Source: Polytrichum commune (Eukaryota > Streptophyta > Polytrichopsida > Polytrichales > Polytrichaceae). From it: a stretch of 64,000 nt of DNA. A model generated the notes under the pieces. That model ran no database searches. It saw nothing but the letters and a program-made list of their open reading frames with translations, and was not told where the DNA came from. Made by a program: the position numbers and the translations under genes. Below are positions 8,320 through 37,500 of this stretch, piece after piece. The DNA lies in NCBI GenBank assembly GCA_950295325.1, contig OX485809.1:25854001-25918000 (forward strand), read 5' to 3'. The first letter of the stretch is position 1. Each line of letters starts with the position of its first letter.

Positions 8320-8320
8320 A

Positions 8321-8349
8321 AACACTATATTCGTTAATCGGAGACTTTT
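8321..8349 (+). repeat. Left terminal inverted repeat of the 16.75-kb element
   Basis: It begins AACACTATATTCGTTAAT and ends GAGACTTTT. It matches the minus strand of 25043-25071 at 27 of 29 positions. The following 8350-8728 is the left subterminal region, which holds no gene and no clear subterminal repeat array. Confidence 0.8.
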
Positions 8350-14526: not shown

Positions 14527-14563
14527 GTTTAGGGTTTAAGGTTTAGGGTTTAGGGTTTAGTGT
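14527..14563 (+). repeat. Short interstitial telomere-type repeats
   Basis: Several tandem or near-tandem TTTAGGG units (the plant telomere motif) with one TTTAAGG variant. Too short to be a telomere; probably replication or repair debris within the mobile element. Confidence 0.7.
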
Positions 14564-14944
14564 ATTCGACCACGTGGCTGCAATGCACAAGTTCAATCTA
14601 AAATGTCCTCAGATGAATGACGATAAACAAAATTCAAGCATGTTTACTAAGTTATTGAAGTTAATGTGATAGACGCATCCATTACATATAGGGTTTACAA
14701 ATCATGAATTTAATGTGAACTCATTACTTATACATTCAAGTCGTTATAAGTGTTACATATTGTAGAATGTTTCATTCAATTAATACTTAAGTTGAATTAT
14801 ATATACTATCGTTTATGTTTTTTTTGTATTAAACCTTAGGGTCCTATTTTTAAAAACAATTAGTGTTAATTCTATAAATGTTCATGGTTTAGGGTTTTAG
14901 TTGTACAAGTGTTACTTATACATTTTGTATGGTTTTTCTTTTTT

Positions 14945-16200: not shown

Positions 16201-16201
16201 T

Positions 16202-16400
16202 GCCCCTACCCCCCTTCATCTACCCATATCTACCCATCCCATCCCATCCCCACCCATGTCCCCTCCCCCCATCCCATCCCACCCATCCCCCTCACACCCT
16301 CCCATCCCCACCCATCTCCCCTCCCCATCCCCACCCATCCCCCTCTCCTCATCCCTTCCCATCTCCCATGCTCATCCCTTCCCATCCCATCCATGTTAAG
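16202..16400 (+). repeat. C-rich low-complexity tract
   Basis: Imperfect CATCCCATCCC-type repeats. Open frames on both strands here are artefacts of composition. Downstream, 16400-17238 has no repeat and may hold the promoter and 5' untranslated exons of the plus-strand gene, but I see no decisive signal. Confidence 0.7.
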
Positions 16401-17838
16401 CGCGGTCCAGTGGAGGGATGCCACATGGCAACCGCAGGGAAACCCTAGCGGTGCTGGCTACCTCCCCGCGCCCCTCCTCCTCATTCTCATTCCCAGCAGA
16501 GAGAGGAGGAGCGAAGTAGAGCGGAGCGAAGCTCTGGCGAAATTTAGAATGCTTTAGTTTATGTGTTTTTTTCGCATCTTAGGAGTCGCATATTTCTCTT
16601 CAGTTTGGAATGAATCTGATTAGAGAGCTTCAGAGTTGTGCGCATCAGGAGTAGAGAGCTTGTGAGCTTGTGAGCTTGTGCAGGTTGCAAGCTTTCTTTT
16701 TTTTGTTGTTTTTGTGAGCTTCATAGTTGCAAGTTCGGAGAAGACAGCTTGCTAGGTGACAACTTGAAGTTTGTAGGCTTCAGAGTTGCAAGCTGTGTTT
16801 TAGTGGTTGTTTTTGTGAGCTTGATAGTTGCAAGCTTGGAAGAAGGAAGCTTGATGGTTGCAAGATTGCAATTTCAGTGCACATGAGTAGTTGCTAGGGT
16901 TTAGGTCTCATTCAATTGCATACAAGGAGTGTTCCAAAATTTTCAGCAAGAAGAAACAAGGTCAAGCACATTGCAATGTGAGTGAAGTAATCCTTCTAAA
17001 CTCGCTTCCCAAACATTCTGAATTTCTGCATTGTTGAATTCCATGGGTTTTGTTTGTATTGTCAACTTCTTTAGCATGAGATCTGGCATGTTGTGTATGC
17101 TTTATGAATTCTGCACTGATTTGGTTTGAGTATCCTGGTTCTGATCCAGTGTTGCAGGCACGAACGCAAGCATTCTTCAGAGCTGAAGTGTATATGTATA
17201 CGTATACGTACATGTACGGACAGAACGCTCTCAAGAAGTTCACATTTACGAACGAGCGTTCGTAAATGTGAACACAACCTGCAAACCAGAGATGTTGTGA
17301 CCCCTCCCAGTCCATATGTTTACGAACGCACGTTCGTAAACACGCAACCCATCCTCTTTTCATGTGTTTACGAACGCGCGTTCGTAAACACGCACCCCTA
17401 AACCCCTAAACCCTTAAATTTTACGAACGCACGTTCGTAAACAAGGAATACATAATAGTCTGAGTATTTACGAACGCACGTTCGTAAGCACATAATCCCT
17501 GCCCATACCTCATTATACGAACAAGAGTTCGTAAATGACTGCCTTGTGCCCATCAAAAGATTTACGAACGTGCGTTCGTAAACACATGTTGAACAAATTG
17601 AAGATATAAATCAGTATAAGTCACAACAAAACAAAATAATATAAACACATTGGTATTTAAAACACGCAAACATCTAAAGCCAAAAGAACAGCCTCTCAAA
17701 CAGAACACATTTACGAACGTACGTTCGTAAATATCTCAACAACTATTGTTCAAAATATTTGAAAATTATAGAACTCTGTCTGCTAAATACGAACGCTCGC
17801 TCGTAAATACGATCCTGACTACCTATGTTGTTTTGCAG

Positions 17839-20800
17839 ATGGCCATCCCTAACAAAAGCGCGATAGAGATGTTCGAACAGAAGTTGGAGAGTGTCCCAGA
17901 GTCAGTGACCGACGACAATGGGAATGACAATTATGTCCCACAGGAGGACTTCATGAAAGAGTGGACGGCGCTTCCAGAGATGTTAGAGGATGGAACATTC
18001 ATCCTCCGCTTCGTCTACCAGCTCAATACCAACGACGATGAACCAGAGCAGTGGGTGCAGATGGCAACATGGGAGATAGATTCCGTGGAGGCACAGGGCA
18101 ATTACGTAATCCTCAACATGAAGTACAACAATGACCACATCAACGTGTTGCTGGACTACTTGGCATACACCTTCTCCCACAACTACGTGCAGATGCATGC
18201 TAAAGAGGAGGGAAAGCGTTTCGACCTGCCAAAACTCTTCACAAGATATAGCCTAAGTCAACATTGGACAGCAAGGAAATTGACCGCTTTGTGCTTGAAC
18301 ATCTCCAAGACCAACAGTGTTGTGTTGGAGGCCAACAAGAAGAAGAAGAGTCCCAAGAAACCAACGCAATCCGGTGCAGGCGGATCCAGAAGTGCTCCGC
18401 GGCCTGTTCCCACTGCAAGCAGATTGACCGAAGGTACGAGCAGACATTCCACTCCTTCGAAGAGAACGAGGGACGACATGGAGAAGTCTGGCGTAACTGA
18501 GGGCGCAGAGGTCAGTTCCCCGCCAGTCATGCCGGCTCCGTTGCAGAAAGGAGAGGTACCGGACGGTGCGAAGGCCACGCGCATCCTTTGAGATTTTAAC
18601 AGTTACTCGAAGGACTGCTGGCCAATGGGTCGATTCTTCACATTCAACGTCGACTGCTTCAAATGTGAAAAATCTCCAAACAAGTGGGTAGTGAGGTCAC
18701 GGGAGACCGGGGGTGTGAAGTGGCAGTTGAATAACCTCTACAACAACGTCAAGTGGGACATGCAAACAGTTTGTGTGATGCCAAAGGGCTTCACTACCCG
18801 TCCCACGGAGAGGGATTGGCCACGAATCCTCAACGGAGATTTCTGGATCATCGACGGACAGCACAGCTTGGAGGCTGCTAAGATTGTTCTGAATGACGAC
18901 GCCTTCCAGCACGAGCTGAAGGGCGACTTGCGCTATTGGAAGTCGTTTCTGGTGTGGTCAGACGACTGGGAGAAGCTCCGCAAAATATCAACGTATTTGA
19001 ATAGCGGAAACAAGATGAAAGCTTTTGAGGCGTCCTGGGCTGCGAATATTGTTGCTGCAAGAGACGTCTGGGTGGCACACGGTAGCCCCCCTAAGGAGAG
19101 GGAGAACGCCAAGAAACCTTCTCCACAGTGGAAGGTAAGTTTACGAACGTGCGTTCGTAAACATCATCTCAATATTTCCTTTCTTGTTTGCATTTTATGA
19201 ACGTGCGTTCGTAAACATCAGCTCAATATTTCCTTTCTTGTTTGCATTTTACGAACGTGCGTTCGTATTTTACTCTTGACTGACATCCATTTTAATATGC
19301 AGGCGTTCTGCGACGCTATGGTGGACAAATTCTCCTCCATCGACATGAAGTCTACTTCAACCAAGTCGGTGCTGGAGTTGAAAGGTGAGCTCAGGCTCAT
19401 ATGTTGTACAACAGACACCTGGGATTTATGGACCCAGTTTTTTGACGCTCACACGTCGGGAGATTTAACCAACCCCGACACGGAGGAGAAGTACAATGCC
19501 GTTGAGAACTTCGAGTGCCCCCCGTTGCTCAGGGAGTTCTTCAGACCCCTCCAAGGGCTGACAGAATCGGAGTTGAAGCGATGCGCCGTGCACGCTCTAA
19601 TGAAAACAGAGGGAAGGAAACTTCCCTATCCAAAAATATTTTTGAAGAGACCCAAGCACAAGCCCGGGACGTACTCCATCAAGGAGTGGTGCGAGCATCG
19701 AAAGCTGAAGACAGCAGCAATGAGGGAATTGAGCGCACTGGCACCTCAATACCAAATCTTCGACGTCGACGGCGACGTGAAGTGGAATCACTGGAAGGTG
19801 TTCAAGCAAGCCTTTAATATTAGAGGCCCCTCAATGCGAAGTCTGGTCAGGGAGCACGCCGCATCTTTGAAACTGAAGGGCAACAAACGGACTAAGAAGT
19901 CCGAGACGGATGCCCAGGAGGTGGGCTTTTATAAAAAAAAATTGGAGAGGAAGAGGACAGCAACATTCGAAGGAGTGGCAAGGTTTTGCACTGTCACCAC
20001 CGGCCTGGAGAGGACCACATTCTCTAAGTGGGACGGTAGCTTCACCAGGGCGGATGTTAGGGAGGACCGACGGGGATGCCCATTTGCCTTGATCGATTTC
20101 AGGAGCATCCCGGGTGCGTCGAGCCGCGGGACAAAGGACCTGCCATTCTACAACCCATTCATGGCCAAGTTCATGGAGTACAAATCTCCTGCCATGAGGG
20201 AGCCCCACGTTTGGCTATGGATTGTCGAGCACGAGAGGCTGTCGGAAATTCTGGAACTGTACGAGAAGACCATCAAGTTCGAGTACAGTATTTACCACAG
20301 CACCTATGTTCCCGCCAAGATAGAAGGGATCGTTGTAATCAACGAGGCCAGGGGAAACAAGCAGGTGGGAGCAGTCAGCCTCGTCTTCCTGACCTTCAAC
20401 CAACTAAGGGATGGGAGGGTCCCTATCAAGGCTAGCAATGTATTCAAGAAGATATACAACATCCCGCACCCACCTCCCAAAGATCTATTCCAGGAGACGT
20501 TATTTACTGTCATTCCCGCAATTGAACTCAGGCTGGAATTCTACATATCCATTCTCCAGAGTTTGACAACCCATGGAGAGACGGTGTACAGCATATACAG
20601 GGGCAGCAAGTTTTTGTACGCGGCCATGGTAAGCCCACTCTCATTTGTTTACGAACGTTCGTTCGTAATGTTCATTGGTCTATTAGTCTTAGTAATACTA
20701 GTTATCATACTAAGCTTGACATTTACGAACGCACGTTCGTAAAGACCAAGGTCTGCACCTGAAATAATAGGTTAGACATGAAGTCATTGGGATTGCTGAC

Positions 20801-22414
20801 TTTTACGAACGCACGTTCATATTTGCTGACATGTTCTAGTTTATGCTACAGATGCTTGGCTTGGTCGTCAATTCCTATCTGGACGCAACCGACGAAAAGG
20901 AGTACAAGCGTCACAGGGCAAAGGCGTCAATGATGGACCTGGGTGACATGAGTGGCCCCAGGACAGACTTCAGCTTGCCATCGGAGGGGGGAACGCCGGT
21001 AATTGACACGGATGATGACGAGCCCACCCCCTCAGCTAACCTTGAAGCGATCATCCAGTCGTTGGATGTCACTCCTCTGCTGTTATTGCCGCCATCAAGA
21101 CAGCCTTCAGACCCCCATGGGACTCCTAGGGGCTACACCGGGTCGTCTGCTGGGGCAACCCAAGATGTCGCCCCCGCAAGAGTATCTGGACTGGATCCCT
21201 TCGGCACACCTGGGGGATGCTCGACGTCGGGGTCTCCCAGGACCTCCTCGGTGCCAAAGATGGAGACACTCGACCTCCTCGACCAACGGTCGCGTCCATC
21301 CTTGGACCTCTTCAGGAACACGAGGAGGAGGATGAAAAAGACGCCCTACGTGGAGCTGCCGCCAGGGGCAATTATCGATGTGTCCGACGAGGACGAGGGG
21401 GACATGGACATCATGTCCGAGCTAGGGGTGGAGTACGACATGAACAAGCGGGTGAAGGAGGAATCCCTCACAGTTGCCGAGCTCAACTCCAAGCTGGAGA
21501 AGAAGATGAAGGAGGAAATGGCGGCAGCGCAGGAGGAGAGCGCCAGACAAATGGCGAGGCTGGAGAAGGAGCTCAGGGATTCCGCCGCAAAGACAGACGC
21601 CATCTTTGAGATGCTGAGAAGCATGCAGAGCATGTCTGCTCCGGTGCAACAGCCCTACCCCTATCCCCCTGTAGGACACCCCTCACAGTCCTCTTCGCCA
21701 GGAATGTACCAAGCAGGGCCATCCCACCCCCGAGCGCATCCAACACCGGCTGGAAGTCCTTTTCCACCTGAACTGGCAACAACGGCAGCGCCTTCGCACG
21801 ATGCGGTCTCTGCGGCGATAAGAGAGGACGAAGATTTACGAACACGCGTTCGTGAATCTTCAGGTGCGGCAGTCCTCACCCCTCCCCCATCAAGGGTAGG
21901 ACTGCCCTCAACTGCAGACAGGGTAGTTGCTAGGAGGGGCGATGACACTACGGAACACACTGACATGCTCATTGTGGAGGACACGCAGGGGAGCCCCAAT
22001 GATGCGGCATGTATCGCGTGCATGGATGTGGAGAGCCTTGAGCATTGTCATCATCCTTCCGCGCGGATGGAGGATGTCCGCATGGAGACTCTCGACCTGG
22101 GTGGGGACGAAGACGAAGCGGATCTCATCGAACAGACCCAGGCGTCCCAGGCTGGCCATGCACCAGAGGCCATGGAGGCAGAGGCAGCTGCTCCGATGGA
22201 GGTTACGAACGCGCGTTCGTTAATCGAAGAGGAGGGAACTGCTCGGTCCAGCGCCGCTGCCCCTCCCCCCGATAACGAGGTAACTCATCTCTGAGAATAA
22301 CTTTCATTTTACGAACGCGCGTTCGTAACCAACTAACCCCCTCGTTTGTTATTGGCGCTTCATGTCCAGTGGCATCAGGAGGCCCGCGCGAGCCTTTTCT
22401 GCGTGACACCCTAG
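17839..22414 (+). pseudogene. ParB-like / degenerate permuted methyltransferase-like protein
   Basis: Start chosen at the ATG at 17839, directly after an acceptor TTTTGCAG. Exon 1, 17839-19134, carries a basic linker (NKKKKSPKK) and, near residue 339, FWIIDGQHSLEAA, the DGxH signature of ParB/sulfiredoxin-like folds. Intron 19135-19302; exon 2, 19303-20628; intron 20629-20851; exon 3, 20852-22279; possible last exon 22370-22414. All junctions are phase 0. Exon 2 has PFALIDFRSIPG and, at its end, ETVYSIYRGSKFLYAAM continuing MLGLVVNSYLD. I read these as eroded catalytic motif IV and SAM-binding motif I in permuted order, as in beta-class DNA methyltransferases; this is inference. Exon 3 has an acidic patch and a coiled coil (LNSKLEKKMKEEMAAAQEES). 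A TGA at 18589-18591 breaks exon 1, with frame and composition continuing after it. Palindromes fill both introns. Confidence 0.6.
19135..19302 (+). other. Intron 1 of the ParB-like gene, with a 57-bp tandem duplication
   Basis: GT-AG intron of 168 nt. Three palindromes of family 1 sit in it because a ~57-bp unit (palindrome plus CTCAATATTTCCTTTCTTG) is repeated twice and followed by a third palindrome. Confidence 0.75.
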
Positions 22415-22894
22415 GCCTGCCAGTTTTGTAGGACAATTTTGTAGGACACGGAAATTGTGATAGATTATCACGTGAGACATTTGTAAATATTCAACGGATT
22501 TAATATATGAGCAGTTTATCTCTGCATCGGATTTTCCCAATTTTGTGCATCGTCTATTCAATCCCTGTGTTGTGAATGGTCTGGCGTCTCTATAAACTCT
22601 TGCATGCCCCTTCCTCAATCACAAACGCTCGTTCGTAAATGTGTGCGACCCAGTGTCCACCTCCTTCACGAACGAGCGTTCGTAGATTATGCCTGTAATC
22701 TCACTCACTCACGAACGTTCGTAAATGACGCGCGCCGCCACCCGCAGCCCTCATTCACGAACGCGCGTTCGGAAGTGTGCCTCTGAGCGCATTCGCATTG
22801 CACTCTAAACCCTCGCTCCCTCGTCATTCCCTTAATGCAATTTTAATTTATTTATTGGACCATATCATTGAACTAGTTAAATTGTTAATCACAG
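22415..22894 (+). other. Spacer with degenerate palindromes upstream of the FCP1-like exon
   Basis: Four family-1 palindromes at about 22620-22765, all with the outer TTT replaced by CAC- or TCA-like bases. The acceptor of the next exon is at 22893-22894. The first exon of that gene should lie here, but neither ATG at 22604 nor 22726 joins it convincingly. Confidence 0.4.
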
Positions 22895-23662
22895 GACCCC
22901 ACGAAGTTAAATCGCAACCCGTCGGCGAGTGGGCCTCAGACCCGTCACAAGCCCTTCCTGGTTCTTGACCTTAACGGGGTGTTGTGTCACACCCAACACA
23001 TCCCCAAGGTCCCCACCCGTTCCTTCCGCCAACCCGACGAGATGGACTACGACGGCCAGCTCGACACTCTGATAAACCGCAAGGCCGTCCGCACCCGTCC
23101 AGGCGTGTGGGACTTCCTTCGAGAGGTGCTCGACCTCTTTCACGTGGTCGTCTGGAGCTCCATGATCATGGAGAACACGGAGGCCATCGTCGACTTCCTC
23201 TTTCGTGGCCTCCCGAGACCATGCCTCGTCCTCGGCCAAGATGCGTGCGACGATCTAGTCGACGAGAAGGGGTTTCCCGTGCCCAAGTTCGGCGGTCGAG
23301 GAGGGGGACAACAGTTCCTCAAGGTCCTCCGGTCCAGGTTGTGGCAAGGCATCCCCATTCTCAAGGGGGTCCCCCACGGACACTGGCCGACGCCGGAGAA
23401 CACCCTCCTCGTCGACGACAGCCCAACGAAGAGCGTCCTCAATCCCCCGGGCACCGTCGTCTTCCCCGACACTTGGACCGGCGATAGGAAAGATACCTTT
23501 TTGGTCGATAAGCTAGCACCTTATCTTAGAATGCTAGTGCTCCACCCCGGGAGCATCCCTGATTTTGTTAAGTCCAACCCCATCGGCAACGCCGCGCTTA
23601 GTCCCCGCGACAATGTATATAAGAGCATCGTGCGGCTTGCAAAAATCAATAAATTGATTTGA
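22895..23662 (+). CDS. FCP1/SCP-like HAD phosphatase, 3' exon
   Basis: Open from the acceptor at 22894 to TGA at 23660-23662, about 255 codons. Near the start is FLVLDLNGVLCH, the HAD motif I in the DLNG form common in plant FCP1-like proteins: the nucleophile Asp is kept and the second acid is Asn. Then come RPGVWDFLREVLDLFHVVVW and WSSM (motif II region), a KDLR-like zone, and NTLLVDDSPTKS (motif IV). FCP1-like enzymes remove phosphate from proteins such as the RNA polymerase II tail; the Asn makes catalysis doubtful. It has no stop or shift, unlike its neighbours, and its codons are GC-richer. The upstream exon is not identified. It may be a captured host gene fragment. Confidence 0.7.
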   Translation, partial: DPTKLNRNPSASGPQTRHKPFLVLDLNGVLCHTQHIPKVPTRSFRQPDEMDYDGQLDTLINRKAVRTRPGVWDFLREVLDLFHVVVWSSMIMENTEAIVDFLFRGLPRPCLVLGQDACDDLVDEKGFPVPKFGGRGGGQQFLKVLRSRLWQGIPILKGVPHGHWPTPENTLLVDDSPTKSVLNPPGTVVFPDTWTGDRKDTFLVDKLAPYLRMLVLHPGSIPDFVKSNPIGNAALSPRDNVYKSIVRLAKINKLI

Positions 23663-23861
23663 ATTGCCACCGTGTATTTGTTTGTTTCCATGTGGATCAC
23701 ATTTCTAATTCCTTTTTTGGATGCCTTTTGGTCGTGTTTGTTGTTGTTGTTGTTGTTGTTGTTCACAGTTTGCCCCGCCTTGCGACGCCCCCCTCCTCGA
23801 TGGCCCTTTCATTCCCCGCTCGGCCCCTCCCTCCCCCTCGCGCGACGCGTCGAACTTCCGA

Positions 23862-24697
23862 ATGCCATCCCTCTACCAATTCTCGGCGGTGGACGCGGCG
23901 TCGGCCGTGGATTACTCCCGTGACGTCGGGATCGAAGACGGCGTCGTCAATAGTCCTCCCCCCAAACTCCACTTGCGCACGCGCGCACCCTCGCCCTCTC
24001 CCCTCTCCAAAGAGAAACGAACTCTCGTTCGTTTGGCTACGACGTCAAGGGAGGACGGTGTCCCTCGTCGCGGTCCGAGCCGGCGTCTCCGCATGGAAGC
24101 CCACCCACAGGAAGCCCTCCCCTCCGCCTCCGCTCCTCCCCCTGCCAACTCCTCCCACGTCGCTCGTCCCCCTTGCATTGATCCCCCCGTCAACGGCCCG
24201 AAAGCCAAGGTGCAATTTCTTTTACTCCCCTACCACATTTCCCGCCGTTGGTTTACTTGTCTCCCATGTTTACATTCCCTTGTGGCCGCGATGTTTACGA
24301 ACATACATCCCAAACCGCCGTCGTTTCCCCCACTCCGTTCAAGCCTTTGATTTAATCCCACTAAATTTGCTTTCTTTCGCAGGTGGCTACTCGCTCGATG
24401 GGTGCCCATCCCTCCTCGACGTCGTCCTTGGATAGGCTGGCACCCAAGGCCACGTCCTCCGATTCCGATCGTTGTTTGGCCGTCCGGCGAACCACGAGAC
24501 AATCTGTCTCCCAAACGCAATCGTATTCCACTCACCATACCACTTCGTACAATTCGGGAGCGCGTCCGGATAATATTATATGGAAGAACGGCACATATTC
24601 CGGGTCCGTCAACAGTAATGGTTATAGCCACGGGCTGGAGATTTTTAGGGCCATGGAGGCTGCCAAAAAAAAAAAGATGGCCGCGACAAAAAAATAG
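23862..24697 (+). CDS. Small two-exon protein of unknown function
   Basis: Exon 1, 23862-24209, starts MPSLYQFSAVDAASAVDYSR; intron 24210-24382 has GT-AG ends (AAG|GTGCAA ... TCGCAG|GTGGCT). Exon 2, 24383-24697, continues in frame and ends EAAKKKKMAATKK-stop, about 220 residues in all. The middle is rich in Ser, Pro and Arg; the C-terminus is lysine-rich. I recognise no domain. Exon 1 contains the palindrome-like AAACGAACTCTCGTTCGTTT in the frame that keeps it open. It follows the FCP1-like exon by 200 nt in the same direction and could be a separate gene or more of the same locus. Confidence 0.5.
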
Positions 24698-25042
24698 TGG
24701 GACGGACTCCCTAAACTAAAAATAGGTTCAAGGCTATTAGATATTATCTATGACTTTAGATTTTATTTCGTGTTCTCCAAGACATTGATGGTTTTTCCAT
24801 TATCCTTGTATTTCATTCCAATTGAATTAATTCAATTTCCATTCATCATCCGTATCTTGCCTTCCATTCATGCCCATTTCTCATTTCATACGCCAATATT
24901 TTCATGTATGCTTCACATTTTCGTTCAATTCCATGCTTTTATGTCTTATTATTGTTTCCAACCCTATACATTTCCGAGTTTTAGTTCGTAATTACTAGTT
25001 CTTATTTGAAATGTGCGTCCTTAAATAGTCTCAAAATCATCT
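24698..25042 (+). other. Right subterminal region, no gene seen
   Basis: AT-rich sequence between the last gene and the right terminal repeat. No subterminal repeat array is visible. Confidence 0.4.
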
Positions 25043-25071
25043 AAAAGTCTCTAATTAACGAATATAGTGTT
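25043..25071 (-). repeat. Right terminal inverted repeat of the 16.75-kb element
   Basis: Read on the minus strand it begins AACACTATATTCGTTAAT and differs from the left end at two adjacent positions. The next bases are CAC, then the minisatellite resumes. Confidence 0.8.
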
Positions 25072-25405
25072 CACGGTCTTCAACCCAGCCGAAACCACAG
25101 TATTTAATCCCAGCCGAATCCACAGTCTTCAATCCAGTCGAGCCACAGTCTTCAATCCAGCCAAGCCACGGTCTTCAACCCAGCTGAAACTACAATATTT
25201 AATCCCAGCCGAGCCACAGTCTTCAACCCAGCCAAGCCACAGTCTTCAATCCAGCCAAGCCACAGTCTTCAATCCAGCCAACCCGCGGTCTTCAACCCAG
25301 CCGAAACCACAATATTTAATCCCAGCCGAGCCACAGTCTTCAACCCAGCCAAGCCAAGAATATTTAATCCCAGCCGAAGCTAACAGTCCTTTATCCCAGC
25401 CGAAC
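25072..25405 (+). repeat. Minisatellite array, right half
   Basis: Same unit and direction as 7855-8319. It resumes with CACGGTCTTCAACCCAGCC immediately after the element's right end. Confidence 0.85.
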
Positions 25406-25528
25406 TAATTATCTATCTAATTCTACCAAGCCCCCTACCTAATTACCCTAACCAAGCTCCCTAATTCCACTAAGCCCCTTCCTAATTCCCACATACTTCC
25501 TAGCTCTAAGAACTCAAATTCCTAGAGA

Positions 25529-25529
25529 G

Positions 25530-25564
<35 letters not shown>

Positions 25565-25570
25565 AGAAAG
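25529..25570 (+). repeat. GA microsatellite
   Basis: About 16 GA units followed by an AAGAAGAAAG tail. The flanking 25571-26590 has no recognisable gene. Confidence 0.9.
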
Positions 25571-26782
25571 AAGAGAGAAAGGAAAAGGAGGAGAGGGCAC
25601 CCAAGACCACAAACCCCTTAACCTTCTCCTACTTAGTAGGACCTTATCCTATCCATTAAACCCTCACCCCCTAAACCAACACAAACATGTTCTAAATCAA
25701 ACATTTAAATCCAAGGCCCTTCTCCTTGCTTCATCAAACACTACTCACTTAACCAAAACACTCCCTAATGTCACTAAGCTTCTAATTAACCACACAAAAC
25801 AGGCTTAAGGCCTAAAACATAAAACACACAAAGCCTCACTCTTTTTATACTTTTGATTGTTTCAATAACACTTCAAATGCAATTCTAAATAAATTCTAAA
25901 CATAAAACAAATATGAGCAACCATTTTGGGCTCATAATATGTTCCCATCCATGTTCACACATCCCCCAATGAATCTGTTCCAAGGGGATTCATTATTAAG
26001 ATTAATTAAACAATGTGCGTGCATTCCCTATCTACCAAAAACAATCGTATAAATCATAAGAACATACATGCAAATGGGATACAAATGTAAAGATACACAT
26101 AGCCTCAAATATACGTACCAAAAAAAGAACACACATAAAACCATATAGTACATAGTATTTTATGTGTCCAATAATTTTAAACTCCTCGAGTAAATTGCCT
26201 TCATTATGGCAAAAGTATACAAGTGCTTGGAAAAAAAGGAAAGCTTCCTTATCTATATGTTCATGAATCAATTTTTATTGAAAAACTTGTGATTCAAAGA
26301 GGTTTCATTCGTAAATAAAGCTTATATACACATTCATCTCCACTAGTATATATTATGTCACTCTTACGTCATTGGTTCCAAGACTATGATGACATTTAAT
26401 AACTCTATGATTACGCAGTTTGTTGTATCGTCGTTGTATCATATGTCCAAATCAAGTCAGTGATTTATATTGATACCCACAAAGACCTCTCTTCATATGA
26501 GAAGCCTAATCCTCGAGGTCCATCAAGTCCCTATATTCTAGCCACCGTTTTGAAGATAGCATAATTGTGTGAGTGCAAGAAATTGGATGAATTATGAAAT
26601 GGGATGCAAACCATCACTCGAAGAGAGTGCAATGTGTTGTGTTCGGAGGCAACACATTGCAAATTGTCTTGTTCATCTCAAATGACTCCATTGGGCATGT
26701 TTGTGACACTCAAATAAACGGCACTGCTAGTCTTAGCACAATTACACGAGGGATATCCTCATTCAAAGGCATGTGAGAGGTG
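25571..26782. other. No gene assigned
   Basis: AT-rich sequence. A 60-codon open frame at 26594-26776 (contains GGNTLQIVLFISNDSIGHVC) has protein-like composition and ends just before the hAT-like insertion; I cannot assign it. Confidence 0.3.
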
Positions 26783-28011
26783 GTCTTGTCCAGGGGCAAA
26801 GCTAGGCTTTTGACCTAGGGGGGCCTGACCTCATAATATGGAAATATCCAACACACAATAGCAACCATTCCACTGCATACTATACATTATGACCCCACAC
26901 CGGAATGGCCAAAATACTACCAATACACGGAACCAACACTCACATCAATAATTTGCATACATAACCAATAACACCCCACAACAAACCTACAAACTCCGCA
27001 AGAACTACAAAATGTTCTAAAAAGAACATTAAACACACACATAGACACCTATCTCATAACACCCACAATAACACACTACAAGTTTAAATTCTCCAAAACA
27101 TGGATGAACCCCCCCAAACCCCCCCCCCCCCCCCATGAACACCAATACAACACCTCTACCCACAAAATACCAACACATTTATCCACTTAAATTTCACCCA
27201 CAACATTGCATATACACAGATGGATCATTTATCCCACCAACCAAGAACCAAGATGGACAAATAGAAGGCAACACTGCAGGTTCTTGAATATACAGCCCCA
27301 ACAACAACATCCAAATATCAGATGACTACCAGGGTACCAAAACATCCTCAGAGCAAAGCTCAATGCAATACTCACCGCTATCAAAACCATCCGTACCACC
27401 CAGATAGACACTCACATATTTACAGACAGCCTTAACAGTATATTCCTAATTCACAACCACATAAGACATCCAACATCACAACATCACCACCCAGACAAGC
27501 TACTCATAGCAGCCATAGTACATCATATTTACTAGACCCGATACACAGTTCATATACACAAAGTATGTGCACACTCGGGCATTATCGGTAACGAAATCGC
27601 CGACACACTGGCCAACGAAGGGACTCTCAAAGATAAACCAGATAATACACCACACATACATATAGCCCACCCTACACCCTACTGGTTAGCCAGCTGCCCA
27701 ACTGCCACACACGATGGGGCCATCCGTAACCTCCGCATAACTATAATGAAAGAACACGGATCTCGCAAAGCAGCATTAGCCAAAAAAAAATTCCCATACG
27801 TTGACAATGGTTATCAAACGACCAAATAAACCACAAACTCTCCAACCACTTTTGGAAGAATGAAATGGTAACAGACGCACAAATATCTCAAACCTTCAAA
27901 TTTAGATACGCCCAATACATGGGCAACCATAAGAAAAACATCTTTTGGCCACGCACACACCAAAACCCCAACTGCACACTATAATGTCATAAAAACGCAC
28001 GGGTAGATCAC

Positions 28012-28076
28012 GGGGAGTGCTATCTTATGAGCGGTGAGCAATGAGCGGCGAGCGATGAGCGGTAACTTATGAGCAG
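28012..28076 (+). repeat. Left end of the Mutator-like element, GAGC-type subterminal repeats
   Basis: Starts GGGGAGTGCTATCTTATGAGC and continues as repeats of GAGCGGTGAGCAATGAGC type. The right end, 39218-39295, has the same arrangement on the opposite strand. Such short end repeats are plausible transposase binding sites. Confidence 0.8.
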
Positions 28077-31000
28077 TGAGGAAGATGAAAATTTTGGTAA
28101 TAGGGCCACCAATATCCTATAACCGTGGAATTGTGGCCTTAAAAATGATGATTTTAGGGTTTAGTAATAAGAGGGTTGAGAAGGATAAACAACATGAAAT
28201 CCAAAAATTTATTCATAAGTAGTAGCACTAGACATGAAACTATCTTTTGCCTCGTCATCTATATATATTCGAGCACCTTTGCATTGCGAATTGATTTTGG
28301 AACTATAGCAAGATTCTTCATTTGGATCCGAATCTTCGAGATTCAACATTGCAATTGCAACATTCTCGGCATATGATGGGAGACGCGGGCTACGACTTGG
28401 ACTTCGTAGGAATTGTCTATGTGCCCAAAACGGGAGACATGTCCTCTTCCCAATCGTATTCCCGAAATCAAATCGATGAAACATGTAAATAATGTGAAGA
28501 AATAAAAATGAACCAATGAATTGAATGAAACGAATGAATTGAATAAAAATTTATTGTATCAAAACTTACTCACACTCAAATTCAAGCATCTCCTCATCCG
28601 AGAGGTCATCATCTTCTTTTGTGAGATCTTGTATATTCTCCTTAGATGACCCCTCTTTCAAAACCTTTTCCAAAAGCGGTTTCAATATGTGCTCAAACAT
28701 GTCATTATCACCCTCAAATGCAAGAAGATGTTTGCCACATGCGCGTGTTGCTAGGATAGAAGCTCCAGTAGAACATGTCAAATCAACAACGCGTCCATTC
28801 GATGGTGTAAACAATTCAATAAGATCTTGAAAAAAAACGCGGCGATTTTTGATATGGCCCCCTCCAAGGTCTTCCCGATTTTTGAAGAAGCGTGTTTTTT
28901 TCATCCACAAAATTGAAAAGCAAGTTTTTGCTTTTCAATCCAGTCCCGAAAAAAATGGAGTTTGGTTGTCTCGTGGATTTTTTGGTAGTAAAATCCCTTA
29001 CCAAGACATGAGCCATAAATGCCGGAGTCTACAAAAAAATGTAAATTGTGTTAAAACTATATACAATGCAAATAACACCAAAATAATTAAATAGAAACAA
29101 TTATGATGTGTTATACTTACGGTGTAGGTTGGAGACTCTGGATCCTTGAACACCATGTACGAATTGAGGCAAATAAAAGTCCTAAGAACTTTCATGTTGC
29201 CGTTGTGTAAGGTTGAATTCAAAACCTTCTTGGTTTGCATATCGATAGCAGAAAATACTATGAGGACGCCATCATCAGACAAGATGGACTTGCACAAGGA
29301 CATTGTTGCAACCATCCAGTTCTTGTCATATTTATTCCAAAGAGGAATTTCAGCAGGTCTATTGGAGAGGTTGAAGTCAAAACCGTCCGGAAATTATAGA
29401 AAAACCAAGTCAACGGCAAATGGAGTCGGACTTCCCATGACATGAAATTCGCGATTGTCTTTGAACTGAAATACCACAACATATCACAATATAAGACACA
29501 AAATAAAATCCAAATGAAAGTAAGAACATTACGGAAAATATAAAATGAAGATTACTTACATTTTCAAGAAATGCCCGCCATTGGATCCACTCAGGAGGGC
29601 CTACTTCAACCCCTTCAGACTTGTTCTTGACAGCAGTAGATCGAGCAAAAGAGAGCGTAAGAAAGTTCTTCAGTATGAATAACTCTTTTCTCAAAACATT
29701 CGTTGGCGCACGATGAATAGCGTCATAGGTGCTGGAGTAATGAAATTCCAATACATCGCACCCGGATTTTGAACTTTCGCCTCCAAGTGTATTCTTATCC
29801 AAATCATTGGAAAGAACAAGCAATTCTTCATGTTGTGAAATTTCCGATTGACCTTGTATTTTGGTTTCAGGAACATGTTTTCTCTTACGACGTTTTGTCT
29901 CTTTTGGTTCTAGCTCTCTAAGTTTAAGCTGCACAATTTGTGCTTGCAAAATTGCAGTATCACGAGGATCTACATTTTTGGCATCATTTATCTGACGGAT
30001 TGTCTTCTCACTTGACGGATATGCATCCTTAGGACAATCAAGATACCAACCACAATCCTCATAGTGTGGGAGCGACCAATCTAAACAAATCTCAGTAGTG
30101 AACATGCATGAGTCTTCCGCACCAGTGTCACGCCAATTTGGAAAAAAACGAGGTTCTCCTATAACGCATTTGTGCGGAATCAAAACATATCGGAAATACC
30201 TACACACAAAAATATTATGAGCCAAATATTGAATGAAAAGTAAAATGTAATGAAAAAATATCAAGAAATAGTAAAGAATAAGTTGTACCTGTATAGAACA
30301 CGCTTCATAGCAAGATCAATATTCGGTTGCTCATCCCAAACGTTGTATTTTTTTACTTTTCCGCTTTTGAATTCACGATAGAATATTGAATTGAAAGCCG
30401 CAAACTTCCAGGTTTGGATATATTCGGAGAGAGTAGGCACATCTGCAAGCAATTGAAGAGGAGATGAAAGAATACTTTGAAGCTCTTCAATAGCTTTTTT
30501 CTCTAACTGTGCCCAATATGTAGCCTTTGATAACCAATCATCAAGTGCAGAATCAGAGAGGGGTGATTTCGGGAAATGCAATGCATCTTTGTCAAATCTA
30601 TTGCCATTCCAAAGCTTGAGCCATCCGACTTTGACATCTGGATCCACATTACTAACAGCAACACGATGAAATTTCTCTTGTAACATTTCAGGCACCGAAA
30701 ATGAACCCCAATGGTGCTTAATTTCTTCAAGAAAGCAGGGGTGAGGTTGATGTCAGCAATTGCTAGTTGTTTTGTAAAACTAGAAGACAACATTGCACGT
30801 TTTTTGTTGACAGCTGCGGACATTGCTTTAGAAACTCCTTCTGAAGTTCGTTCAAGAGGATGGGTTTCATTGTAAAGGTTGAGACCAATATCGCTAGCCT
30901 CGGCAAGTTCTTGCTGAAAAATCAAACAAAATCCAAAATTAATAAGTACATGTAGATGTGATGTAAATGAAAGATAAATAAACATTAAAAACATAGTAGG

Positions 31001-32235
31001 AAATGCTAGAAAAACTTACACTGTACATATAATCAAGAAAAATTGGCCGCGTCAAAGAATACCAAGTTTCAACGGACTTCTCCTCACATCGCTTATAACT
31101 TCTAGGATCCAGTTGTTTTTTAAAAGAAGTCAAAGGCATGGTGCCAATACTTTGCATCCGATACAAAGTATGCACCAAATTGGTAGAAACGTGAGAGTTT
31201 TCTGTTGACCTGAAAAAATATTGAATTCATGTATTTAGGATGATATAATTCAAATAACAAAATACAAACCAGAAATAAATGAAAATAAAGAAGTAAAAAT
31301 ATTACTTGTTGATGTCGTGCATAGCAGTCAACAAACTTGGAATGTCATCAAGCTCGGGCGCCAAAATGATGGAATCCACAAAGACATGACGCTCGTAATC
31401 TTCGGTATGCAAGCGGTCAATATAACTTTTCCAAGCAAAAAATCTGTGATTACCATCCCATATGAAGAACATCTTGTTCTTGTATGATGTAAATGAAGGA
31501 TCGGCATCTAATTCAGTTTCAAACACCGCATTAGCTTGAGCCCAATTTGGGCTCCAAGATGCACGAACCTCGTCATCCACAAATTGAAAATTTCCCTTAG
31601 AGTCGGTAGCCGATAGATAAAACACACGGTCACCATCACGATAACCATTGAAAAAGTCAGCCTCCAATTTAGTGATGTCGCCTTTCAAAGCAGGACGCAC
31701 AATAGGCATTGGAACCATGCGACATAAGGGTACACGCAAACGAGATTTCGGTCCAGCACGGATTGAGGAAATTGTTGAAGTGGAATTAATCTTTCGCTTG
31801 TCCGTAAGCTCCCAGACTTTCTGTTGATAGGTTTTATTGTCACGATCATTATCTTCATCCGAGTCAAAATCATCGAGAGATTCATTTATTTTTCTTATTA
31901 TGAAGATTTGACGATATGTCCTGATGAACATGAACTTGTTGAGATGGACGATCTTGAGTTGAATGCATTGTAGAATCATCACTAGTAGAAATAACAGTCG
32001 TTCTCTCCAAATCCATTGATTGGTCCTAAAACAAATGAAATAAGTTTCATAAATATTTCAAAACCAGTAGAAACACATTAGCAATAACATTACAAAAATT
32101 ACAGCAATAGCAACAACAATAACAACAGAATACCACGAACACAGGGAAGAATAACAAAAATTATTCTAGACACTACCATTTGCACCTTTAAATATTGTAC
32201 GATAAGGGTGGCCGCTCACCCCAAAACTACAAGGG

Positions 32236-32840
32236 CAGACCCTGTGCGTTAACGCACAGGGTCTGTGTGTCCAACTACAGGTCTACAAAAGTTGGGCGCG
32301 AGGTTTGGGTCGAACGACCCAAACTGTCCACGCGGTTTCGATCGAGCGACCCAAACCGCCTACAGCCAGTTTGGGTCGAACGACCCAAACCATGCTCACA
32401 GTTTGGGTCGAGCGACCCAAACTAGGCCGACAGTTTGGATCGCTCGACCCAAACTGCCCACAATTTACGCCTAATTATGCGCAATTACCCAGTCATCACG
32501 AAGGTACAAACAAACCTTGTACTGCACCTGTAGATGAGAGAGCTTGCAGCGACGAGCTCCGGTCCGATAGATGAGAGAAAAAAGACTGAATGCTTTGAAG
32601 GTGTGGCAATTTATACTACTCGTCCCTGCGGCCATATTTAGCGTGGCTCTTCGTGCCCCGCATGGCCGCTAGAAAGTTGCCAGCGCAGACCCTGTGCGTT
32701 AACGCATAGGGTCTACTTGCCCAACTTTGTGAAGCCTCTAGCTAGGCAAGTAGACCCTGTGCGTTAACGCACAGGGTTTGCGCTGGCAACTTTGAGGCCA
32801 CTGTGCGTTAGTGCATAAGGCCTGTGCGTTAATCGCACAG
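32236..32840. repeat. Palindromes family 2 and 3 in intron 1 of the methyltransferase-like gene
   Basis: Family 2 has arm GTTTGGGTCG and a 2-nt spacer: 32303-32324, 32369-32390, 32401-32422, 32433-32454, and an imperfect 32334-32357. Family 3 has arm CCCTGTGCGTT with no spacer: 32236-32265 (perfect 30 bp), 32687-32714, 32752-32779, and degenerate copies to about 32840. Two family-3 copies at 32674-32797 lie in a larger inverted pair that includes AAAGTTGCCAGCGCA. Confidence 0.88.
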
Positions 32841-33297
32841 GGCCGAGACATGAATTTGCTAAAAACTTTTTTTTTGAATTGGTAGATTTGCCAAAACTTG
32901 TAAAATCTGGAAAAAATGCTAATGGGGTCCAAAAAAAAATAAAAAAATATGCTATATTATCTAAATTTCTGTAGCTACAAAATCTTCTTATATTTTGTTT
33001 TGGTTTGAAATCATTCTCTTTTCTCATTCTTCTATCTATTTCCTTGTTTTGGGCCACCTCGTAGATTTTGGGTTTCGGGGCAAAAAAAAAATTATGCTAT
33101 TTTGTGTCATTTTCTAGCTCCTATAACGTATTGCATGAATACTTGAGTATACATATTTCTCATTTCTTGCATTCTAACCCCGTTTTGAATGGTTTTTTTG
33201 TTCCTACGCTCTGAAGATCGATTTAAATTCATACAATAGATATTTGTTTACTTTTAGGCTCTCCTAGTCGTTTTACCTCCCAGCTTTTGGCCTTCCT

Positions 33298-33720
33298 AAG
33301 TTGCTCTTACAAACCCTGTGCGTTAACGCACAGGGTTTCTCCTCCCAACTTTTTGCCTCCTAAGTTGCTCTTCCAAACCCTGTGCGTTAACGCACAGGGT
33401 TTCTCCTCCCAACTTTTGGCCTTCCCAAGTTGCTATTACAAATCCTCTGCGTTAATGCACAGGGTTTTAGCTCCCAACTTTTGGCCTTTCTAAGTTGCTC
33501 TTATAAACCTTGTGCGTTAACGTATAGGGTTTTACCTCCAAACTTCTCGCCTCCTAAGTTGCTCTTATAAACCCTGAACGTTCTTCTCCTGACTTCTAGC
33601 CTTCCTAAATTTCTGTTATATACCGTGTGCATTAACGTATAGGTTTTTTCCTCTCCAATTTATAACCTCTATAAATTGCTACTACATGATATGTGAGTGA
33701 ACGTACAAGGTTCTCCGTCC
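33298..33720. repeat. ~64-bp tandem array built on family-3 palindromes
   Basis: AAGTTGCTCTT recurs at about 33298, 33362, 33427, 33491 and 33555. Each unit holds one family-3 palindrome: 33311-33338, 33375-33402, 33440-33467, 33505-33532. Copies decay towards the right. Outer bases are AAA/TTT here but AGA/TCT at 32237-32264, changed on both arms together. Confidence 0.85.
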
Positions 33721-34053
33721 TAACTTACAACTTATGCACTATCAAATTATGTGAACGTTGAACTGACTTACCTTTTTGTTTGTCGTTTTCTTTGAACCCG
33801 TCTTCAATTCGGACTCTGATATACGATCATCTATATCTTCTTTGCTCTTTGCACCTTCATCATCCTCCATCGCATCAAAATCCAGTGTCTTCACAGTTTC
33901 TTCTACCGTACTCAACAAGTTTCTTTTCCCTTTCTTATTTGCATTCTTCTTTCCCACACTCAGTCTGAACCTCTTTTTCTCGGAAGTGAAATACAAAGCT
34001 TTCCTACGTCTTCTCTTCGGCCTCACGGGTGTTCTCTCTACATCGTCCACCAT

Positions 34054-34575
34054 CGTTGGTGTCTATGATATGTTTTCTATCAGGTACTATCATTTATTCT
34101 TCCAATGTATCTATCTCACAAAATCCGGCGTATATTACGATCACATGTTGTAATTGGCGTTCAATGAGCGAGATATTTCGACGCGTTTGTCATTATGTGT
34201 TTATTTTTGTTATATCCGCCAAAATTTTCTGACACCTACTTTGTTCTATTCATAATGAGCAATAATTTATTTTTCCAACCAATTTTAATTCTTTCTACAT
34301 CTACGTCAATCCACACATATATATTTTTGTTTTCTACCAATACTTTTAGTATTTGACGCCATTTTGTGTATATCTTGCTCGTAAATATTCTCTGACTATT
34401 ATTGTGTTATGTCAACTTCTGTATTATTAGATGTTATGTATCACACGCTTTCATCTCCATCCATTATTGTATCACACGTTTTCATTTCCATTCATTTCCT
34501 TATACAACTCTATACAAAACCAACATTCACCCCATATTTTTGTGATGTGTTGTTCATATGTTCTTTTGATTTTCT
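34054..34575. promoter_or_regulatory. Divergent intergenic region of the Mutator-like element
   Basis: The 522 bases separate the start codons of the two divergent genes of the element. Both promoters should lie here. The sequence is AT-rich; I cannot identify TATA boxes with confidence, and no palindrome of the three families is present. Confidence 0.4.
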
Positions 34576-37500
34576 ATGGCTACCATTAGAGCTCATGGAT
34601 CTTTTGTTCCCTTCATCTTGCCACTCCAAGATGATGGTCATGTGAGTGTTTCAGAGGATTTACTTAGTTTGAGATTCAACCTCCAGATAGGAACCATGTA
34701 TTTAGAGCATGAGATGTACTCTGCAGATGGAGAGGTGTATGAAACGATTTTGGTTCCAAAAAATAGAACTGATGTTGGTTTTATGTGGATCTTAGGACCT
34801 GGTTCATTTAGGGTGATAGGACTTTCTGAGTCTCAGATGCAAGCTTCAACTGTCATTTTGACAAACGAATCCGGTACATCCACAGTTCAAATTCCCTCTA
34901 TCGCACCTGTTAAGGTGGAACCCCTTGATGATAGTGTGTTTGTGCTATCAGATTCAGAAGATGACATTTGTGCATCTGTTGATCTTTCAAACACATCGCC
35001 ATTTCCATTCAGAAGTGTTCATTCTACTCCTTCCCAACTTCCTATACATATAGTCAAATCCCCTTGCGGTCTTATGTACAACAAGGTGGTTCCCCAAATC
35101 TCACCTTCTCAACGTCCTCCACTACACCCTTCACCTTCATCTACAGGGTTGACTATGGTTGATGCCTTGAAGCTGACAAAGTCAAGAAAAAGATCAAAGT
35201 CCGATCTTGCATCCATTGATTTTGACAGTATAGATGTTCGTGAAGTCAAGTACTTACCATCTTCTTTTAATGGTGATGTTTTGTTTCTCTTGCCTCCTGT
35301 GGCATTCAAAGCTCCAAGTACGTATGGTCACTCAATGGACGGCATGGACAAGATGTGCGACGGTCATCCTTGGTGCACCACCAAAACCACGAATATCCAA
35401 AATGACTTTGGACTGTCCTTCCGGCGCTCTACTTATGCTGGTCATCTCCAATGTCATAATGACTACTGTGATTACATGAATCGCAATGGGGGCCTCCGGA
35501 ACAACACTGAATGGGCCGGTTCAACTCCTATCCCATTTGCTGTGGGTGTTGTTCTCCCTACTAAGTCCACTATCGAGTGTAAGGTATGTCGGTCCACACC
35601 TGTGTGCATTGCTTTGTGTAATGCTCGAATTATATACATCCACTCCACATCCGTTGGAATGTCCAGGGCTTGCATTCATCTTGGTGTACATGATCACCCT
35701 GTGGCCAATGGCACATGCCGTGAATCATTGGACATGGCATACCAATGCGTTGCAAATGAAGTATTGAAAACACCCACAGCAAAAAATTCAGCCATAGTTA
35801 TGGCGGCGAGCAAACAATTCTTGGCCGATTACCTTCTCAAATCTCCCGCAAATGTCGAAGGCCATCACTTGGTTGGTTCATCCCTAGAGGTAGTCATGGA
35901 CAAATTCAGCACTCTTGCGTCTCCAAATTGTCGTAACTTTGTATCTGGATCAAAGCGTTTTTTGCGTAGTGGAATGGGAACTATGGATAGTATTATGGCG
36001 CTCAAAGACCACTCTGCTTTCAAATTCGTCCATGGTAGTCGGTTCCCAGGGCAGTCAAAGGACAAAGTGTTTGTTTTTAAGATGTCTGTAGACCTTCCAG
36101 GTAGTGGTGTGGAGCTTGTGAAGAGGATGCAAGTCGGTGGGGATATGGAGAATTCATGGATTATGTTTGACCATGTCAAACGTTTGAAGGACTGGACGAC
36201 CATGGCTTGCCATGTGTACAACAGTCGATATTGTAAAGTGTTGACTATTGCGTGTTGTGACATGCAATCTGAAGATGGTGCAGCACAAATTCTCTTTTGG
36301 GAAAATTTGAATGGTGTCATGGCAGAAAATGGTGTACCATACGTAAACTTCAAAGGGTTTATGGCTGATAGTGCTCAAGCTAATTGGAATGCGGTGAGGG
36401 CGATTTACGGGGATGGTGATCCAAGTCTACCCATGGTTGCACGTGAGCGTACATGTCTTTTCCATTGGTCCGCAAGCTTGGATAAGGTGATCCAAAAGTA
36501 TATCAAACCATCCTTGCAATTTCAACACAAACAAATATGCAAGGATTACAAAGACGCGAAAACAATGGACGACGCTGAGACCAAGTACCATGTGATTCGT
36601 TCTTGGTGGTTGTCATCTGGAGCTGCCTCCGAGGAAGGCATCCTTGGCCTTTCAGAGTGGTTGGGATTTTGACACTTTCGTTACAGACAATGGGGTGGTC
36701 ATATGCTACTTGTAAGTACATATCAAACTTCATTATTCAATGTAATATATCTTATGTTTTTCTTATCTTTGTCTTTCTGTATTGTTCATAGGATATGACA
36801 ATAGAAGAGCGTACGGGAATGCCAACATGCAACCTTGCAGAGACTGTACACAACAAACAACAAATAGTTTGGGTCGTTCGACCCAAACTTTGTATGCAGT
36901 TTGGGTCGTTCGACCCAAACCTTGTAGGCAGTTTGGGTCGTTCGACCCAAACGTGGCAGCCATTTTGGGTTGAACGACCCAAACCTAAATATATAATCTA
37001 TCTTATGTTTGTCTTATCTTTGTATTTGTGTGTTGTTCATAGGATATGACAATAGAAGAGCGTGCGGAAATGCCAACATGCAACCTTGCAAAGACTGTAC
37101 ACAACAAATGGCTCCAACAGTCCGGGAACAAGATGACTTGTTTATATGAAGCTACAGTGGACGACATGATCCGTGCTTTCATGCAAATTGCAAATTACCG
37201 GACATGGTTGAAAGGGGGGTCTGATGGTAAAGGTCCTGATTCGGCATCCTTGAAACTCAAAGCGGCTGCAAGGTGTGGAGATCCAAAAATGTTGGCCGAT
37301 GCCATGAAGTCTTATCCAGGGGCAGAAGACGTCAACACTAGAGATTGTGCATTGGAAGGGTCAGAGCTCTTTGGTTCCACCAAACACAAACTCAACCTAC
37401 CACCGGGTGCTGATTGTGACTCTCATCGACCCGACAAAGTAAACTATTCCATTCCCCGTCCGAACACCCGAGCAACTCGTCAACGCATAGAGGAATCGTT

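Follow-up and report, generated by a model that had tools for sequence, protein, structure and literature searches.

Why do two transposons of one plant genome each carry a gene that recalls the ParB-methylase fusions of phages, and what could such a gene do for its element? The question is raised by a 64,000-nucleotide stretch of the Polytrichum commune genome (assembly GCA_950295325.1, contig OX485809.1, positions 25,854,001 to 25,918,000 of the forward strand), which is called the window here and whose own coordinates are used below. The window contains E1, a DUF7869 DNA transposon (8321-25071; 16,751 bp), and E2, a Mutator-like element (28012-39295). The original prediction, made from the letters of the DNA, held that a phage-like ParB-methylase had been taken up by plant transposons at least twice or passed between them, possibly to mark or protect element DNA. 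The E1 and E2 proteins are predicted here to be element-encoded, sequence-specific regulators or anti-silencing factors, similar in action to the VANC proteins of Arabidopsis VANDAL elements and unrelated to them; the probability of this reading is put at about 0.48, a little under one half. It draws on features that lay outside the original prediction, namely palindrome arrays specific to each family and a switch of palindrome between E1, which is of the E1a type, and a diverged relative, E1b.

Palindrome arrays and the E1a/E1b switch

E1 contains 35 copies of the palindrome TTACGAACGNNCGTTCGTAA (at most two mismatches) upstream of and within its genes. Fifteen copies are situated upstream of the transposase gene (12066-13254), partly inside three 310-bp tandem repeats, and eight immediately 5' of the ParB-like gene (17246-17806). 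Each intron of the latter holds three (19141-19268 in intron 1, 19135-19302; 20649-20822 in intron 2, 20629-20851), exon 3 holds two (at 21836 and 22203), and four separate exon 3 from a NIF-like open reading frame (ORF; 22309-22774). The sites are discrete: over eight of them, identity was 91% in the core versus 35% in the 30-nt flanks. At the same threshold no copy was present in the 36 kb of the window outside E1 and E2, and 20 local shuffles gave no E1 palindrome even at three mismatches.

In the 408-Mb assembly, TTACGAACGNNCGTTCGTAA has 3,737 perfect copies, compared with none for a backward control. Four of the five dense clusters among those listed coincide with E1 gene matches; the fifth is a derivative flanked by terminal inverted repeats (TIRs), without long ORFs, that retains 41 palindromes. 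A sister E1 element, whose gene has diverged to a synonymous distance (dS) of about 1.5, carries 28 copies. In 187 pooled sites from seven loci (at most three mismatches, copies partly related), the CpG positions, which make up 8 of the 18 fixed positions of TTACGAACGNNCGTTCGTAA, hold 33 of 121 mismatches. Transitions account for 28 of these 33 and for 42 of the 88 mismatches elsewhere: the CpGs are conserved, and their mutations show a methylation-like bias.

E2 has its own arrays. The palindrome GTTTGGGTCGNNCGACCCAAAC occurs nine times, before exon 1 of the ParB-methylase-like gene and between the two transposase ORFs. The first group (five copies, 32303-32454) lies within 32238-33401, together with five copies of a second palindrome, GACCCTGTGCGTTAACGCACAGGGTC, and would be intronic if the putative exon 0 described below is right; the other four copies are at 36867-36984. 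Throughout the genome, GTTTGGGTCGNNCGACCCAAAC has 9,231 perfect copies and its backward control none. A related gene at another locus, L028, is accompanied by eight copies of GGTGCCGTTAACGGCACC (at most three mismatches), of which seven lie between exons that precede the MTase (methyltransferase) exon; this palindrome has 259 perfect copies in the genome. Two further loci of the E2 type, L026 and L029, contain tandem repeats.

Dense GTTTGGGTCGNNCGACCCAAAC sites led to two loci, L066 and L067, which encode a diverged E1 protein and not E2. The complete element around L066 (contig C1; 18,084 bp) shares its TIR start with E1, is bordered by the 4-bp target-site duplication (TSD) AAGT and is designated E1b; L067 is a broken copy of it. 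E1b carries 40 copies of GTTTGGGTCGNNCGACCCAAAC, including an array upstream of the transposase, and their places match those of TTACGAACGNNCGTTCGTAA in E1: 5' of the gene, in both introns and in exon 3. The window E1, a burst copy of E1 and the TIR-flanked derivative contain TTACGAACGNNCGTTCGTAA only, whereas both E1b loci contain GTTTGGGTCGNNCGACCCAAAC only. Identity between E1b and E1 is 26-44% in the regulator, depending on the part, compared with 63-67% in the DUF7869 transposase exon, 50% in the other exon and 45% in the NIF ORF. Between L066 and L067 the palindrome is unchanged, though exon 2 has reached a dS of 1.73 with dN/dS (the nonsynonymous to synonymous ratio) at 0.06 (286 codons; exon 1 is saturated). 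The simplest explanation for the switch would be a site-recognising protein that changes along with its palindrome.

The E2 and E1 proteins

The E2 gene lies on the minus strand. Exon 1 (31306-32025), the ParB-like part, contains the peptide FIWDGNHRFFAW (31466-31431) and is followed by exons 2 to 4 (31020-31209, 30289-30913 and 29560-30199), exon 5 with the region of MTase motif IV (29121-29465) and exon 6 with a WRG..K stretch and motif I (28566-29028), the latter read as VVDLTCSTGAS at 28790-28758. A putative exon 0 (33772-34053, minus strand), in frame with exon 1, was deduced from the sequence. The window copy is damaged by a stop in exon 5 and by frame breaks; in six sister copies read, motif IV is QFPD or QFPN. 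All six exons are open in copies L011 and L012 (992 aa), and their junctions are GT-AG once the cut points are moved slightly. The gene is under purifying selection (dN/dS 0.136 for L011 versus L013 at a dS of 0.21, with one stop in L013). A genome search with E2 gave 736 candidates; 150 of these were scored and all matched, for at least 150 genomic matches.

Judged by profile comparison, the C-terminal part of E2 is a beta-class DNA methyltransferase homologous to the phage ParB-methylases, in which motif I comes after motif IV. The alignment of the E2 family with nine phage ParB-methylases (hhalign) spanned 186 columns with a probability of 98 and an E value of 2.5e-13, a score that no control out of 100 column-permuted ones approached. 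PF01555 was detected in five of six family members (best 1.8e-8), the last exon matches the phage DNA methyltransferase family phrog_3008 (E 7e-5), and a profile of E2 with its relatives from the same genome, A3, found DpnA (4e-11) and CcrM (4e-7) in the PDB. The L014 fragment (row 6 of A3) was removed ahead of the profile tests, as were phage and viral rows and L003 from the whole-protein family alignment. By tblastn, 70 phage records were matched; of the 25 listed, 18 carry a methylase annotation, the best at 2e-3, and M.PhiCh1-I gave 22% identity over 222 aa with an E value of about 1.

The N-terminal part of E2 can be called ParB-like by motif and position, which falls short of proof. Its best alignment with phage ParB is the DGNHR hairpin, which scored 18.13 versus 18.1 for the best of 100 controls. 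No database match of this exon of the E2 family was significant, tblastn of this part against phages gave nine unrelated matches with E values of 2 to 8, and scans of viral contigs with the profiles A2, A3 and A4 found no relatives. According to passages of a 2025 PNAS survey of the ParB-CTPase fold (PMC12704722), the arginine of the GxxR hairpin is required for nucleoside triphosphate (NTP) binding. E2 has this hairpin in common with the ParB-CTPase fold proteins of ParABS systems: GNHR is read in all six copies L008-L013 and also in L015, L025 and L028. The damaged copies L014, L024 and L029 read GNHK, GNHP and GNHC, and L016 has no such motif.

Fusions of ParB-like domains with N6/N4 methylases were already known from phages (passages of PMC12704722) and from a Wolbachia prophage (passages of PMC3089641). 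Phage and prophage fusions such as M.PhiCh1-I and that of Wolbachia WO resemble E2 in their layout, a ParB-like hairpin followed by a beta-class MTase whose motif IV precedes motif I; in M.PhiCh1-I the order is a ParB-like GEHR hairpin, motif IV, HPTQKP and motif I. Unlike these fusions, the E2-type gene belongs to a nuclear transposon, has introns, is about twice as long with a large middle region, has WRG..K in place of HPTQKP and carries an inactivated motif IV.

Genome searches with PF01555 and phrog_3008 found further E2-type carriers (L024/L025, L026, L027/L028 and L029), and the E2 search had returned the relatives L014-L016; at least four further families in the P. commune genome carry E2 relatives. 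The best PF01555 matches of the assembly, on the small contigs C10 and C12, look bacterial and were excluded. Compared with E2 by tblastn, the carriers gave best high-scoring segment pairs of 7e-9 to 2e-77; in most of them the match covers much of the protein, and in L026 and L027 it covers parts. Since the families are mostly 22-47% identical over aligned stretches, the gene is old in this genome and therefore not a recent capture. Motif IV was examined in 33 loci and could be read in 29; L014 (which fell to the score limit and reads FTDTQY by eye) and L062-L064 were unreadable. It is DIPD in eight loci, QFPD in five, DLPE in four, EYPD in three, DIPE in two, and QFPN, DIND, DIYD, DIPQ, EYPN, NLPE and DIPY in one each. 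The aromatic residue of the catalytic motif [DNS]-x-P-[YFW] is thus replaced by D, E, N or Q in 28 of the 29 loci; these form about seven or eight groups and are hence non-independent, and the change from aromatic to acid or amide is common across groups. A motif-I-like stretch, the SAM region, is legible in most loci. On a plain reading, the E2-type protein is a pseudo-methylase. Methylation by it is unlikely because the aromatic has gone, and the proposal that it marks element DNA in this way was not borne out.

The E1 gene, on the plus strand, has three exons (17839-19134, 19303-20628 and 20852-22294). Exon 1 contains the peptide WIIDGQHSLEAA with the DGQHS hairpin; the original prediction read this peptide correctly and put it three bases away from its position at 18844-18879, and the other three peptides that it named are likewise present. 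The MTase-like region of exon 2, for which the evidence is weak, includes FALIDFRSIPG (20083-20115), HPPPKD (20467-20484) and the motif-I-like VYSIYRGSKF (20584-20613). Exon 3 encodes the rest of the motif-I-like region and then a long low-complexity tail. The window copy has an in-frame stop in exon 1 (18589-18591). Sister copies uphold this model as they do the six-exon model of E2: L002 and L003 read openly across exons 1 and 2, and exons 1-3 are open in L007, a burst-type copy (1,356 aa), and in L066, whose exons 2 and 3 are both preceded by an AG acceptor. The exon 3 acceptor is AG in seven of eight E1-type copies checked (the window copy, L001-L004 and both E1b loci) and CAT in L007 (at L007 3517). 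The dN/dS of 0.105 (L003 versus L007; dS 1.49, 874 codons, no indel) shows purifying selection. An E1 exon search gave 946 candidates, of which 150 were scored and all matched, for at least 150 genomic matches; a series of 87% copies with identical scores among them resembles a recent burst. L046 is a truncated E1 fragment only.

The relationship of E1 to the ParB-methylases was compared in two parts. Over an alignment of 21-23 columns, the hairpin of two close sequences scored 23.1 against the phage ParB profile, versus 18.1 for the best control, and none of 100 column-permuted controls was as good; with E1b relatives added, the region exceeded all 100 controls against both the phage proteins and the E2 family. 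In the whole-protein comparison with phages, 2 of 60 controls equalled the ParB score. For the methylase region of close copies, 39 of 100 controls were as good against phages (51 when the whole of exon 2 was used) and 63 against E2. When the 34-37% identical E1b relatives were included, the region aligned with phage methylases on motif I and 1 of 100 controls was as good; against the E2 family it was 29. The best alignments of E1a and E1b place the DGQH hairpin on phage ParB and motif I on the phage MTase, both in the proper positions, and FGGSK is retained in E1b.

The E1 protein had no significant match in Pfam, PHROG, NCBIfam or the PDB, and among its sub-threshold matches are GmrSD_N (0.05) and FecR_C (0.011), each in one of four members. 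No phage sequence was matched by tblastn with E1, and blastp of E1 against E2 found no match. In a whole-protein profile comparison of E1 with E2, 14 of 40 controls were as good. E1 thus encodes a distinct conserved protein that bears a ParB-like hairpin; its degenerate methylase end is less certain, and true membership in the ParB-methylase family is uncertain as well. A ParB-methylase gene in both elements, as first proposed, is upheld for the MTase of E2; the E1 methylase is marginal, and the ParB-like motifs are found in both with weak statistics. The PF01555-type profile match expected of both genes was likewise obtained for E2, and for E1 there was no significant match.

Other parts of the elements and their surroundings

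That two unrelated DNA transposons are present, as proposed, agrees with their termini and domains. E1 has 29-nt TIRs (8321-8349 and 25043-25071), and its DUF7869 domain (exon 9173-10297, minus strand; PF25273, E 1.2e-40) sits between them, as it does in E1b by tblastn. The 4-bp TSD is exact in three of four E1-type copies (a burst copy, the C1:639k copy and E1b), and in the window E1 it reads CACA/CACG, with three of four bases matching. A further ORF (10910-11953, minus strand), probably of the transposase gene, is 78% identical in the burst copy and 50% in E1b, and a Pfam scan of it gave no match. E2 has 62-nt TIRs and the 10-bp TSD GGTAGATCAC (28002-28011 and 39296-39305), in agreement with the long TIR and 9-11 bp TSD of Mutator-like elements. 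Its transposase ORFs are both on the plus strand: that at 34576-36672 has no Pfam match, and that at 37607-38410 has a SWIM zinc finger (PF04434) at E 0.043, below the cut-off. E2 is called Mutator-like because of the TIR, the TSD and this sub-threshold finger. Among the features compared, E1 and E2 have none in common apart from the palindrome GTTTGGGTCGNNCGACCCAAAC, which links E1b and E2.

The NIF (FCP1/SCP1-like phosphatase) ORF of E1 (22889-23662, plus strand; PF03031, E 3.7e-15) reaches 80% identity in one sister element and 45% in another. The motif of NIF/FCP1-type phosphatases is DxDxT; the ORFs of E1a and of E1b (L066 from 9238) have DLNGVL in its place. The ORF is conserved between elements (45-80%) and is probably another captured or inactive regulator. 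Inverted copies of the E1 right-end region occur within the element about 11 kb apart (13773-14042 and 24815-25066); a related element may have left a solo end nested there. E1 is embedded in a minisatellite-like array of AGTCTTCAACCCAGCC-type units, present on either side (7890-8320 and 25072-25400). Just beyond the left end of E2 (27536-27829), an RNase H-like frame, probably of the LINE (long interspersed nuclear element) type, was seen by eye.

At other loci, an E1 copy in L003 (195-1140) is split by a stretch encoding an L028-type methylase, one carrier inside another. A protein-kinase-like frame was seen by eye ahead of the ParB-methylase gene in L024 (345-1261) and L025 (162-1729). Sequence similar to GAGCGGTGAGCAATG lies beyond the genes of both these loci, as it does at the E2 terminus (by eye), and L024/L025 are probably the same kind of transposon as E2. 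Contigs C10 and C12 carry strong bacterial-type DNA methylase matches and are likely contamination. The LOB family PF03195, specific to land plants, has 10 matches in the assembly and none in 14 prokaryote controls, as befits a land plant. L045 and L047 are outside all counts, and L041 and L042 were likewise unused.

Possible roles of the proteins and their sites

If E1 and E2 encode regulators or anti-silencing factors, each protein would bind the palindromes of its own element, located at the promoters and in the introns of its genes. Once bound, it may protect the activity of these genes from silencing by the host, or govern how they are expressed. Loading or spreading may depend on a ParB-like module that uses nucleotides, a suggestion that is weakest for E1, which lacks the arginine. 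VANC is a DUF1985-type protein; no DUF1985 was matched in the E1 and E2 exons scanned with Pfam (E1 exon 3 lay outside the scan). The VANC genes of VANDAL elements, which are Mutator-like elements (MULEs), resemble those of E1 and E2 in that an element protein gene is accompanied by motifs, specific to the family, that crowd the introns and the sequence upstream of genes. Passages of PMC5735166 describe VANC motifs as dense in non-coding regions, arranged in tandem repeats and co-evolving with the protein. The published VANC motifs are short (YAGTATTAY, AGTTGTCC/AC; passages of PMC5735166), whereas the E1 and E2 sites are long CpG-containing palindromes beside ParB/MTase-like proteins. Anti-silencing is a feature of VANC; for E1 and E2 we only infer it. 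The VANC-like reading is favoured because E1 and E2 agree with VANC (PMC5735166; PMC10398659) in the position, density and tandem repetition of the sites, in the co-divergence of protein and palindrome, and in a regulator that changes faster than the transposase.

Several observations weigh against it. The E1a/E1b contrast comprises five loci, and the transposase diverged too, though less than the regulator. E2 shares GTTTGGGTCGNNCGACCCAAAC with E1b despite no significant similarity between the E1 and E2 proteins; therefore either the E2 protein is not the owner of this palindrome or the site was borrowed, and borrowing and similar specificity would both account for it. Sharing of this kind is known, in that the AT9TSD1 element carries VANC6 motifs (passages of PMC5735166). 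In the pieces read of the E2-type loci L024/L025 and L014-L016, no palindrome array of this kind was seen. In the full-length comparison with phage proteins, the E2-family hairpin was absent from the alignments returned, and support for a ParB fold is confined to a short hairpin. Both E1a and E1b read GQHS, with serine in place of the GxxR arginine, unlike the ParB-CTPase fold proteins, and NTP binding by E1 is doubtful. AlphaFold on single window E1 exons (18595-19131 and 19303-20628) was uninformative, with a pLDDT (predicted local distance difference test) of 35.

The palindromes could instead be transposase sites for excision and strand exchange, the ParB-like genes serving otherwise; we regard this as unlikely, with a place among the alternatives all the same. 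In CACTA elements the transposition protein binds repeated subterminal motifs, and in Spm/En the element protein TnpA binds repeated CpG-containing subterminal motifs and affects methylation. The transposase, like the regulator, has diverged between E1a and E1b (50-67% identity). In having repeated CpG-containing motifs Spm/En resembles E1 and E2, but TnpA sites are subterminal and the protein is unrelated; the E1 palindromes are internal, set back by at least about 3.6 kb at the left end of the element and by 2.3 kb at its right end, and cluster at gene starts and in introns. The palindromic sites of E1 and E2 also recall parS. In a eukaryotic parS-like system, transposon-encoded ParB-like pseudo-methylases would load at CpG-containing palindromes in the promoters and introns of their element, spread and exclude host DNA methylation, each transposon lineage would evolve its own pair of protein and palindrome, and other transposons such as E2 would borrow a palindrome to share the shield. 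This scheme is considered improbable.

An active methyltransferase that marks element DNA is more improbable still. The MTase domain and motif I are retained, and L024 alone keeps the aromatic residue; its eight sister loci, however, read DIPD, and its ParB-like exon has a stop. A chance likeness of E1 to the ParB-methylases, with E1 an unrelated DNA-binding regulator, is a serious contender that falls short of an even chance: the databases gave no significant match, the arginine is missing, and the methylase part is equalled by 1 of 100 controls against phages and by 29 against the E2 family. Set against this is the proper placement of hairpin and motif I in both E1a and E1b, with FGGSK kept in the latter. 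MULEs tend to pick up host gene fragments (PMC6446971), and the ParB-like genes might likewise be captured and do nothing for their element; this reading is largely refuted by dN/dS values of 0.06-0.14, by retention of the genes in several families and by frames that are open in recent bursts.

Among open-licence papers, no report was found of ParB or methylase genes in plant or eukaryotic transposons, and none on DUF7869 or on the Polytrichum genome. The survey PMC12704722 gives sulfiredoxin as the commonest eukaryotic form of the ParB-CTPase fold, and neither "plant" nor "transpos" occurs in its main text. Of sequence-specific anti-silencing systems in plant transposons, VANC is the one that the literature yielded. 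If the E1 and E2 proteins do act in a VANC-like manner, they would add two further protein types, one derived from a phage methylase, and would point to repeated origins of such systems. They would also be a case of the ParB-methylase architecture put to use in a eukaryote, and P. commune would be a land plant in which thousands of sites, and the ready pairs of protein and site in E1a and E1b, could serve to study how specificity changes.

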